64,000 nucleotides of DNA from Terriglobus tenax (GTDB taxonomy: Bacteria; Acidobacteriota; Terriglobia; Terriglobales; Acidobacteriaceae), in assembly GCF_025685395.1 (NCBI RefSeq), contig NZ_JAGSYA010000004.1:2418001-2482000 (forward strand), given 5' to 3'. A program made the position numbers and the translations under genes. Below, piece after piece: positions 40,680 to 44,600 of the stretch. Every line of letters begins with the position of its first letter. The first letter of the stretch is position 1. The notes under the pieces are model-generated. The model was given only the letters and a program-made list of their open reading frames with translations, was not told the origin of the DNA and searched no databases.

Positions 40680-41240
40680 TTACTCGCCGCTCCACATGTA
40701 GAAGCTCAGCGAAGCGTCACCCTGCTTCAGAACGCGCACCCGTTTCAGCCCCCCTACACGCTCCGGCAGGTCGGTCTTGCTACGATGCTCGGCCACGACG
40801 CGGCCTCCTTCGTTCAACAGATATTCCTGCGCGCCAAGGAACCCGAGCGTCTTCGCGTATTCCTGCTCCATATCCCAGGGAGGGTCCAGGAAGACGATAT
40901 CCAGCGCGGTTTTGTCCTTCGCCAGCCTGGTCAGCAGTACGGAGACGCCGCCACTCTCCACCACGCTGCCTTCCGCCCCCAGAGTCTTCAGGTTGCCGCG
41001 CAGCGCAGCCAGCGCGGGCGATGACTTCTCCGCGAACCATACTCGCCGCGCTCCACGGCTCAGGGCTTCCAGGCCCACAGCGCCCGATCCAGCGTACAAA
41101 TCCACCACGCGCAGGCCTGTGCAATCCTGCCCCAGCACGTTGAAAAGCGTCTCGCGCAGGCGGTCGCTCGTTGGTCGTGTTGCTTCACTTTTCGGAGCCG
41201 CAATCGGACGCGATCTCCACTTGCCGCCAATAATGCGCAT
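40680..41240 (-). CDS. rsmD: 16S rRNA (guanine966-N2)-methyltransferase
   Basis: A 186-residue SAM-dependent methyltransferase. The N-terminus [20 protein letters not shown] and [16 protein letters not shown] are typical, the SAM motif is [20 protein letters not shown], and the catalytic FLDPPW is present in place of DPPY/DPPF. It starts at 41240 after AAGGTGA; longer in-frame extensions do not match the family. It and maf are tightly spaced, and the pair is divergent from the M50-like gene. Confidence 0.94.
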
Positions 41241-41296
41241 CCTGTTCACCTTGCACCGTAAAGCCCGCACCTGGCAACTTCCGTACAATAAACCTG

Positions 41297-42418
41297 ATGC
41301 GCTCGTGGTCCATTCCGCTTGGCCGCTGGTTTGGTGTCGAGATTCGTATGCACACCTTCTTTGTGCTGCTGCTCGCACTCTCCCTCAGTTGGGCCTCCAT
41401 GTCCGGCCACAGCGGCCTTCGCGGCGCTGCACTCTGGTTCATTCTTTTCTTCGCCGTGGTGGTCCGCGAGATCGCGCGTTCGCTTGCCTGCGCCTGGTTC
41501 GGACTTGAGGTGCGGTCCATCCAGCTCCTGCCCACCGGCGGTGTCATCACCTTCGCCACGGCGGAGTCCATGGAGCGTGCCAACGAGGGCGCCATCCAGC
41601 GCAAGCTCGCCATCGTCGGCCCCATCACCAGCTTCCTGTTCGGCGCCATCATCGGCCTGCTCATCTTCGCCGCTACTCCTGGCGTCGATATGCTCAGCCG
41701 CCCATGGATCTCGCCCTTTCACCTCCTGCGCGCCGCCTTCTGGATCCAGCTTCTGCTCGGCGCCATCAACCTGCTGCCAGCCTGGCCGCTCGATGCAGGC
41801 CGGGTCCTGCGTGGCGAGTTCTCGCGTTCGCGTGGACTTGCGGGCGGAACCCGTGCCGCCGTCGGCTTCGGCCAGTTGATTGCGCTGGTCATGATCATCG
41901 CCGGCATCGTCACCTTCAACATGTGGCTGTTGCTCATCGGCGCGTTTGTCCTGATCGGCGCGCAGATGGAAGATCACGGCCTCATGCTGCAGAACTCGGT
42001 GGATACCGTGCTGATGCGTGACGTCATGCTCACCGAGTTCGCGACACTCTCCGCCTCAGATACCCTCGAAGACGCCCTCGAAAAGTCCATCCACACCATG
42101 CAGGATGTCTTCCCCGTCACCCGCGGCACCATCCTAGTCGGTGTTATCAGCCGCCAAAGCATTCTGGAGACGCTGCAGGCCGAGGGCAACGGATATGTGC
42201 AAGCCATCATGTCCCGCGGCTTCCACACCGCGCAGTCCAGTGACTCGCTGGTGCAGACCCTGCGCCGCATGATGGGACCCCGGGCCCAGGCGCAGCTGGT
42301 CCCCGTGCTCGACGGAGAACGCATCGTCGGCATCATTACGCCGCAGAATCTCAACCAGTCCATGAGCCTGCTCGCCCTGCGCCGCCGTATGCGCGGTGCC
42401 GAGGAGCAGCAGTCGTGA
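41297..42418 (+). CDS. M50 site-2-protease-like protein with CBS domains, protease motif lost
   Basis: A 373-residue membrane protein with the layout of M50-plus-CBS proteases: helices to about residue 225, then two CBS motifs (about 240-355). The position of the zinc motif HExxH holds REIAR (R57-E58-I59-A60-R61). The third-ligand motif survives partly as LLPAWPLDAGR (D166). Both His-to-Arg changes can each come from a single transition. Without both histidines zinc cleavage is not expected, so it is likely a pseudoprotease whose CBS domains bind a nucleotide, or a substrate-binding protein. The downstream rsmI overlaps it by 4 bases (GTGA). Confidence 0.82.
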   Translation: MRSWSIPLGRWFGVEIRMHTFFVLLLALSLSWASMSGHSGLRGAALWFILFFAVVVREIARSLACAWFGLEVRSIQLLPTGGVITFATAESMERANEGAIQRKLAIVGPITSFLFGAIIGLLIFAATPGVDMLSRPWISPFHLLRAAFWIQLLLGAINLLPAWPLDAGRVLRGEFSRSRGLAGGTRAAVGFGQLIALVMIIAGIVTFNMWLLLIGAFVLIGAQMEDHGLMLQNSVDTVLMRDVMLTEFATLSASDTLEDALEKSIHTMQDVFPVTRGTILVGVISRQSILETLQAEGNGYVQAIMSRGFHTAQSSDSLVQTLRRMMGPRAQAQLVPVLDGERIVGIITPQNLNQSMSLLALRRRMRGAEEQQS

Positions 42419-43281
42419 CGGAAGCCGCACCGCTCGCTCCCGGTCTCTATCTCGTCGCAACTCCCATCGGCAACCTGGAAGACATAACCCTCCGCGCCCT
42501 GCGCGTGCTGCAGTCGGTGGACCGCATTGCCTGCGAGGACACCCGCCAGACACAGAAGCTGCTGAACCACTTCCATATCCAGAAGCCGACCGTCAGCTAT
42601 CACCAGCACAACGAAGTCGTGCGCACGGTAGAGTTTCTGGACGATCTGCGCGCTGGAAAACGCATCGCCATCGTCTCGGACGCAGGTACCCCCGGCATTG
42701 CGGACCCAGGCTCCAAGGTCGTCGCCGCCGCCATCGAGGCAGGCATCGCCGTCTACCCGATCCCCGGTGCCAACGCGGCCATCTCCGCCCTCATTGCCAG
42801 TGGCCTGTCGACGGAGACCTTCACCTTCCACGGCTTTCTTCCCGCAAAAGCCGGTCAGCGCCAGTCGCAGATCGAATCCCTCGCCTTCAACGGCACAACG
42901 CATATCTTTTACGAGGCGCCGCACCGCATCCTTGAGACCCTGGCGGATGTCATCACGGTCCTCGGCCCACAGCACCCAATCGCCATCGCGCGGGAGGTCA
43001 CCAAGCTGCACGAGGAGCACCTGCGCGGCCCCGTCTCGGAAGTGCTTGCAACGCTCACAAGCCGCGACGCCATCAAGGGCGAGTTCGTCCTCCTGCTCAG
43101 CGGCAACCGCATCACCACGGAGCAGGCCAGCACACCCCAAACCTCCATTGCCACAGCAGTCGATGTCCTCATGAAACAGGGCATCAGCGAGAAAGATGCC
43201 CTCAAGCAGGTCGCCCGCGATCGCAACCTGGGTAAGAGCGAGATCTACCGCCAGTGGCAGCGCGAGAAGGCCCGACACTAA
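42415..43281 (+). CDS. rsmI: 16S rRNA (cytidine1402-2'-O)-methyltransferase
   Basis: A 288-residue SAM-dependent enzyme that methylates the ribose of C1402 in the decoding centre. The N-terminus has LYLVATPIGNLEDITLRALR, with VDRIACEDTRQTQKLL and the SAM region VSDAGTPGIADPGSKVV, all characteristic of the tetrapyrrole-methylase-like RsmI family. The C-terminal segment (ALKQVARDRNLGKSEIYRQW) is also typical. It starts with GTG overlapping the upstream stop. Confidence 0.95.
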   Translation: MTEAAPLAPGLYLVATPIGNLEDITLRALRVLQSVDRIACEDTRQTQKLLNHFHIQKPTVSYHQHNEVVRTVEFLDDLRAGKRIAIVSDAGTPGIADPGSKVVAAAIEAGIAVYPIPGANAAISALIASGLSTETFTFHGFLPAKAGQRQSQIESLAFNGTTHIFYEAPHRILETLADVITVLGPQHPIAIAREVTKLHEEHLRGPVSEVLATLTSRDAIKGEFVLLLSGNRITTEQASTPQTSIATAVDVLMKQGISEKDALKQVARDRNLGKSEIYRQWQREKARH

Positions 43282-43319
43282 GCACCCATCCCGGCAAATT
43301 TGCTAGGCTCAAACTATCT

Positions 43320-44600
43320 ATGAAGGTTCTGGTTATTGGTGGTGGTGGTCGCGAGCATGCCCTCGTATGGTCGTTGCAGCAGAGTTCCAAAGTCACGGAA
43401 GTGGTCTGCGCTCCCGGTAACGGCGGCATCGCCGCCATTGCGCGTTGCCTTCCCGTGGATGTAAAGGACGTCGACTCCATGCTCGCGGTCGTCGCGCAGG
43501 AGCAGCCCGCGCTTACCGTCGTTGGCCCCGAGATTCCCCTCGCCGCCGGTATCGTGGACGCCATGCAGGCCCGCGGCCTGCGCGTCTTCGGACCCACGCA
43601 GGCTGCCGCTCAGCTCGAAAGCAGCAAGTCTTTCGCCAAGGAGTTCATGCAGCGCCACCGCATCCCCACGGCGCACTACGCCGTCTGTACCTCGCTTGAA
43701 GAGGTACGCAAGTCGCTGCCCATCTTCCATACGCCGCTCGTTGTAAAGGCTGACGGTCTCGCCGCCGGCAAAGGCGTCATCATCTGCCAGACCAAGGCGG
43801 AAGCCGAGGAAGCCGCTGCCGGCATTTTCTCCGGCGCCCTGCTCGGTTCCAGCGAAACCCGTCTGGTGCTCGAAGAGTTCCTTGAAGGCGAAGAGGTCAG
43901 CTTCTTCGCTCTCTGCGACGGCAAGCACGCCATTCCCATTGCCGCCGCGCAGGACCACAAGCGCGTGGGCGAGGGCGACACCGGTCTGAACACCGGCGGC
44001 ATGGGTGCCTACTGCACCGATACGCTGCTTGAGCCCAGCATGGTCGAGTGGCTCACCACCCACGTCACGCAGAACGTCGTCGACGGCATGGCGCAGGAGG
44101 GCACCCCCTTCACCGGCATCCTCTTTACTGGTCTGATGATGACCGCGCGCGGTCCCATGGTGCTCGAGTTCAACACCCGCTGGGGCGATCCGGAAACGGA
44201 AGCGATCCTTCTGCGCCTTGAGTCCGATCTTTATGACCTGTTCGATGCCGCGGTTGATGGCCGCGCCGACAAGGTTGCCATCCGCCTCAAGCCCGGCGCC
44301 AGTGCCTGCGTCATCGCCGCCAGCGGAGGTTATCCCGGCAGCTACCGCTCCGGCCTCGGGATTGACGGTCTTACCTCCACCAGCGACGCTGGCGCCGTGC
44401 AGGTCTTCCACGCCGGCACCTCGCTCGTCGAGGGCGAGTTCCGCACCGCGGGCGGCCGTGTCCTGGCTGTCTCCGCCGCTGCAGATGACCTGAAGACCGC
44501 GCTCGCCATGATTTACGGATGCCTGGAGAGCATCCGTTTTGAAGGCATGTTCTACCGCCGCGACATTGGTTACCGCGCCCTTGCCGAAGAAGGCAAATAA
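43320..44600 (+). CDS. purD: Phosphoribosylamine-glycine ligase
   Basis: PurD joins glycine to phosphoribosylamine with ATP, the second step of purine synthesis. The 426-residue ATP-grasp protein begins MKVLVIGGGGREHALVWSLQ, with DGLAAGKGVIICQTKAEAEE, HKRVGEGDTGLNTGGMGAYC and FNTRWGDPETEAILLRLES. The ATG at 43320 fits the conserved N-terminus. It ends exactly where the DinB-fold gene starts (TAAATG), so the genes form an operon. Confidence 0.97.
   Translation: MKVLVIGGGGREHALVWSLQQSSKVTEVVCAPGNGGIAAIARCLPVDVKDVDSMLAVVAQEQPALTVVGPEIPLAAGIVDAMQARGLRVFGPTQAAAQLESSKSFAKEFMQRHRIPTAHYAVCTSLEEVRKSLPIFHTPLVVKADGLAAGKGVIICQTKAEAEEAAAGIFSGALLGSSETRLVLEEFLEGEEVSFFALCDGKHAIPIAAAQDHKRVGEGDTGLNTGGMGAYCTDTLLEPSMVEWLTTHVTQNVVDGMAQEGTPFTGILFTGLMMTARGPMVLEFNTRWGDPETEAILLRLESDLYDLFDAAVDGRADKVAIRLKPGASACVIAASGGYPGSYRSGLGIDGLTSTSDAGAVQVFHAGTSLVEGEFRTAGGRVLAVSAAADDLKTALAMIYGCLESIRFEGMFYRRDIGYRALAEEGK

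Follow-up and report, generated by a model that had tools for sequence, protein, structure and literature searches.

A probable bacterial site-2 pseudoprotease with arginines fixed in place of both zinc histidines in a clade of the Acidobacteriaceae

What becomes of a site-2 protease (S2P) when both of its zinc-binding histidines are replaced by arginine? The question is raised by a gene within a 64,000-nucleotide stretch of the Terriglobus tenax genome (hereafter the window), which encodes a membrane protein of the M50 type followed by a pair of CBS domains (Table 1). An earlier note, made from the letters of the DNA alone, had reported R57-E58-I59-A60-R61 in place of HExxH, an intact frame, the retained stretch LLPAWPLDAGR and two CBS motifs, and had suggested a pseudoprotease that may regulate substrate access or read nucleotides through its CBS domains. 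The residues and coordinates that it gave are correct, and the comparison of orthologues described here points to a protein that is probably old, working and non-cutting rather than a mistake.

Table 1. Features of the S2P-like gene and its surroundings (positions in the window)
Feature	Position	Strand	Basis
S2P-like (M50) membrane pseudoprotease (probable) with C-terminal CBS pair, 373 aa	41297..42418	+	ORF, Pfam, phmmer
R57-E58-I59-A60-R61, HExxH position	41465..41479	+	translation, phmmer alignment, orthologue rows
LLPAWPLDAGR (residues 159-169), NxxPxxPxDGG counterpart	41771..41803	+	D166 kept, 41792-41794
CBS pair, about residues 236-356	42002..42364	+	Pfam, alignments
rsmI	42415..43281	+	TIGR00096, 281 bits
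rsmD, divergent neighbour	40680..41240	-	profile match and locus comparison
Gap between the starts of divergent rsmD and the S2P gene, 56 bases	41241..41296		

The frame of the gene is uninterrupted, and its product falls within the M50/site-2 protease fold according to Pfam (Peptidase_M50, 45.7 bits against a cut-off of 27.2), which also detects CBS domains over two stretches (52 bits). Within the latter, GIITPQN (residues 345-351) resembles GhxTxxN, which we take to be a ligand motif of CBS domains. Residues 3-231 are matched by phmmer to the S2P MJ0392 (PDB 3b4r; E 3.9e-28) and, counted along this alignment, R57, E58, R61 and D166 lie opposite residues 54, 55, 58 and 148 of the MJ0392 chain, that is, the two arginines face its two zinc histidines and D166 its ligand aspartate. 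The HExxH of an active M50 metallopeptidase is absent (REIAR), and the aspartate that serves as third ligand (LDG/PxxPxDGG) is present as D166. The codons are CGC for R57 (41465-41467), GAG for E58 (41468-41470) and CGT for R61 (41477-41479), and comparison with CAC/CAT in the histidine-bearing orthologues fits the single transition per change that the earlier note had proposed. An AlphaFold2 model built from a four-sequence input (P0001, which is the window protein, and L026-L028) reached a mean pLDDT of 38.6 and a pTM of 0.23, values too low for any structural reading.

The motif was read in 137 loci (L001, L008-L143), comprising the genus, the best family matches and approximately one region per genus. 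Once seven short rows (L025, L076, L114, L138, L139, L141, L142) and four identical copies (L026, L027, L028, L032) had been set aside, 126 distinct full-length rows remained, with R57 in 84 (RE rows), H57 in 41 (HE rows, the histidine form of the same orthologue family) and Q57 in one (L118). E58 is found in all 84 RE rows and R61 in 80; H (three rows) or K (one) stands at position 61 in the remaining rows, each of which belongs to the window's genus, and D166 is retained in 74. Synonymous variation is evident in the R57 codons of these rows (CGC 51, CGT 17, CGG 9, AGG 5, CGA 2), and the constancy of R57 and E58 in spite of it goes beyond chance. Likewise, H61 accompanies H57 in 39 of 41 rows, with L100 (HEAAR) and L125 (HELVQ) as exceptions. 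The RE form is spread over 22 genera, or 24 when two known from short rows only (g52, g79) are included, and the histidine side over 34; none of these 58 genera, out of 79 sampled, was seen to contain both forms, and g77 is represented only by a fragment from which the motif is absent. Every one of the 19 genomes sampled from the genus has an orthologue with R57, and even the truncated locus L025 reads RELGR; the orthologue of Terriglobus albidus DSM 26559 (L028, the same protein as L008) is 92% identical. A wider search with P0001 gave a match at E <=0.001, paralogues included, in 240 of 250 sampled family genomes and 77 of 79 genera, and the ten genomes without any match include several incomplete ones. 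Extra membrane-domain residues relative to the window protein (g34) occur after about residue 90 in L124 and after about residue 177 in L143.

The direction of the change follows from the phylogeny, for which the motif columns and residues 160-169 were deleted (an initial tree of 102 rows had retained the motif columns) and 14 rows of other families served as outgroup. RE rows form one clade nested inside the HE rows (SH-aLRT 100, 81 rows) on a long stem of 0.71 changes per column. When six long or unstable rows (L169, L172, L012, L136, L123, L133) were omitted, the resulting 72-row tree recovered the clade with 100/100 bootstrap/SH-aLRT support and in 200/200 bootstrap trees. HExxH together with DGG was present in 17 of 17 outgroup rows fetched; HExxH is therefore ancestral, and no row with one histidine changed fell on the RE stem in the trees. 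The switch to RE thus had a single origin and was fixed in the ancestor of a clade of the family, as the earlier note had thought worth checking: R57 and E58 are invariant and R61 nearly so.

Is the altered membrane domain nevertheless under selection? Against L009, a 91% identical orthologue, dN/dS is 0.053/0.828 (NG86, one pair). With one row per genus, the mean entropy of the membrane half is 1.38 in RE (22 genera) and 1.45 in HE (32 genera), and that of the CBS half 0.85 and 0.73, respectively, the CBS half being the more conserved in both forms. Release of the membrane domain from constraint should raise the ratio of tree lengths between the membrane (TM) and CBS halves; however, this ratio is lower in RE (9.76 and 5.21, ratio 1.87, 22 genera) than in HE (15.74 and 5.56, ratio 2.83, 32 genera), in part because the CBS half of RE evolves somewhat faster. 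Leaving out g64, the genus of divergent RE rows described below, gives 8.56 and 4.32 (ratio 1.98). Hence, the gene is under purifying selection, judging from the one pair compared, and the RE membrane domain shows no sign of relaxed constraint; site, locus and fold are maintained by selection although the zinc ligands are lost. P161, W149 and G81 occur in every RE row, and the cleft-side motifs LLPxG, GP and PxxPLDxG are conserved in the RE rows outside g64, 27 of 74 of which have H instead of N158. A sequencing error, a recent mutation or a decaying gene, suggested by the missing motif itself and by nothing further that was found, is ruled out by the occurrence of R57 and E58 throughout 84 distinct rows from 22 genera, by dN/dS in the one pair compared and by the single old clade, and its probability is next to nil. 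The earlier note had named HExxH in other strains as the mark of a recent mutation; all 19 genomes of the genus carry R57.

The gene neighbourhood agrees with orthology between the two forms. Divergent rsmD lies upstream in 83 of 84 RE rows, in 39 of 41 HE rows and in L118, the exceptions being L067, L103 and L133; since rsmD is common to both forms, the RE gene is the orthologue and not a side copy. On the other side, the S2P gene overlaps rsmI, as the earlier note had observed; the overlap measures four bases and lies between the TGA stop of the former (42416-42418) and the GTG start of the latter (42415). Same-strand rsmI directly follows in 79 of 84 RE rows (not in L055, L061, L064, L068 and L113), but neither L118 nor any of the 41 HE rows has it there, the downstream sequence covered being roughly 1.4 to 2 kb. 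On the HE side, the convergent downstream gene of L125 is a phosphoglycerate dehydrogenase (TIGR01327), and L088, L091, L101 and L119 have downstream frames that look similar by eye. The link to rsmI may be a mere rearrangement in the same ancestor, and the "ribosome-maturation context" of the earlier note reduces to adjacency with rsmD and rsmI, given that the HExxH orthologues adjoin the former and not the latter. A scan of 41100-43400 for promoters and terminators found none, nor any σ70-like match.

A divergent paralogue kept beside an intact copy, the latter being what the earlier note had proposed to look for, can be rejected for this genome: P0001 matches a single place, the search brought up no CBS-bearing protein with HExxH, and the remaining M50 proteins differ (RseP-like HELGH in L002, VHEMGH in L004 and HDATEA in L003). 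The last of these, to the right of the window (C4:2486823-2487398; L003:1465-2163, + strand), is itself unusual in having HDATEA for HExxHA with FDGGR intact (Pfam 50.1 bits), and this pattern was not found in the same region of seven loci of the genus (L196-L202). Other RE genomes may have such a paralogue, since several contain at least two P0001 matches; the one locus read among them, L205 (genome G215), is HELAH.

Several exceptions bear on how the motif is interpreted. In the ten g64 rows (L104, L105, L126-L130, L132, L137, L140), R57, E58 and R61 are retained while D166 has become proline throughout; G168 and the acidic pair 225-226 are gone as well, so that the LDxG motif is wholly lost, no buried acid replacing D166 was found, and L126, the one row scanned, scores 23.3 bits, under the Pfam M50 cut-off. 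RExxR is therefore independent of D166. On the HE side, the zinc site was lost separately in g54 (L100 HEAAR and L118 QETAR, both D166A) and in g5 (L125 HELVQ, D166 retained); the three rows require two changes on the 72-row tree, and each has the CBS half. Finally, no RE orthologue was found in G215, a 98%-complete genome of the RE genus g9, its L205 being a relative with HELAH and DGGR that matches the family profile, and the gene has thus been dispensable at least once.

Which function, then, would be left to such a protein? With the zinc ligands gone, cutting of the S2P type is not expected, and the product is probably a fixed bacterial S2P pseudoprotease that acts by binding a partner under CBS control. 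The proposal of the earlier note stands with regard to the lost zinc site, the intact frame, fixation in a clade and the conservation of orthologues without the catalytic residues; the loss of activity is what these would imply. In the reading that we favour, with a probability of about one half, the protein would bind a client without cutting it and be tuned by its CBS pair: the ancestor of the clade would have lost zinc and proteolysis once and retained the fold for another role, the old substrate cleft would hold a membrane protein uncleaved, and the cytoplasmic CBS pair would set this binding in response to a nucleotide or another small ligand. R57 and R61 would probably pair with E58 and D166, two guanidinium charges standing in for Zn2+ and leaving the buried site neutral. 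Charge arithmetic on the motif gives zero for two Arg plus E58 plus D166, as for Zn2+ plus Glu plus Asp, and fails in g64, where D166P in 10 of 10 rows with RExxR kept argues against a simple Arg-Asp substitute for zinc and weakens such a replacement as the whole story. Client binding without cutting is favoured by the cleft motifs kept outside g64, together with the retention of substrate by a mutant of SpoIVFB described below; the convergent ExxR of g54 (HEAAR, QETAR) also counts for it, and N158H in 27 of 74 rows and the missing orthologue of G215 count against it. More tentatively, the zinc site may have been converted in one evolutionary step to a zinc-free Arg-Glu-x-x-Arg with a function of its own, either a charge-balanced stand-in that holds clients or a glutamate-based catalyst, an idea that we regard as rather doubtful.

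The greater conservation of the CBS half in both forms would also suit a protein whose protease domain is a mere anchor or dimerisation platform and in which all function resides in the CBS pair. This is the main rival, possible though not the likely outcome, and the lower CBS than membrane entropy (0.85 vs 1.38 in RE, 0.73 vs 1.45 in HE), at least two further inactivations on the HE side with CBS kept and the loss of LDxG in g64 speak for it; yet an anchor would not explain why R57 and E58 stay invariant and R61 nearly so within the membrane domain, even in g64, or why the TM/CBS ratio is not raised. The same arginines, two conserved and presumably buried basic residues that g64 keeps without D166, could instead bind an anionic lipid or a different ligand in a carrier or lipid-handling protein, which is unlikely, as no sequence feature points to transport. 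Less likely still is a zinc-free active site in which E58 and the arginines perform new chemistry such as glutamate-based intramembrane hydrolysis: the catalytic glutamate is invariant in 84 of 84 rows despite the lost ligands, as are P161, W149 and G81, but E58 may be kept solely to neutralise R57 and R61, D166 is lost in g64, and we know of no precedent for zinc-free glutamate-based chemistry in M50.

Client binding without cutting can be compared with several known systems. MJ0392 (MjS2P) and the CBS-bearing M50 S2Ps resemble the window protein in sequence at the level of the fold and in the PxxPxDxG motif, and the CBS pair behind the membrane domain is common to the window protein and its HExxH orthologues; in contrast to MjS2P, both zinc histidines are arginines here and zinc-dependent catalysis is not expected. 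SpoIVFB (PDB 8vjl, 8vjm), matched weakly over residues 10-184 (E 0.039), is likewise an S2P with cytoplasmic CBS; its zinc-site mutant E44Q is reported to co-purify with substrate, and the wild-type map to have substrate bound with zinc density absent (PMC11486902), so that the S2P fold can evidently retain substrate with no zinc visible. However, SpoIVFB is an active protease (H43, H47, D137), and the paper speaks of a single CBS domain per chain. EGY3, a plant chloroplast pseudo-S2P, is reported to lack HExxH and to be conserved in its lineage (PMC10978774, PMC9355673); the likeness is by description and not by sequence, and EGY3 is a thylakoid protein, unlike the bacterial clade with its fixed RExxR. 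The rhomboid pseudoproteases (iRhoms, Derlins) offer an analogy in mode of working, as they are described as catalytically inactive members of an intramembrane protease family with membrane proteins as clients, although fold and catalytic type are unrelated.

In the open-licence literature, a search for pseudo-S2Ps in bacteria or Acidobacteria found nothing on bacteria and only papers on plants, and a report elsewhere is possible. The kind of pseudoprotease is thus already known, and a bacterial clade with fixed RExxR would, judging from its sequences, be a new variant of it. It offers a genetically accessible bacterial clade of probable S2P pseudoproteases whose HExxH orthologues in sister genera occupy an equivalent place on the chromosome, so that zinc-site swaps are possible in one background and may reveal the role of the S2P fold and the CBS pair without cutting.
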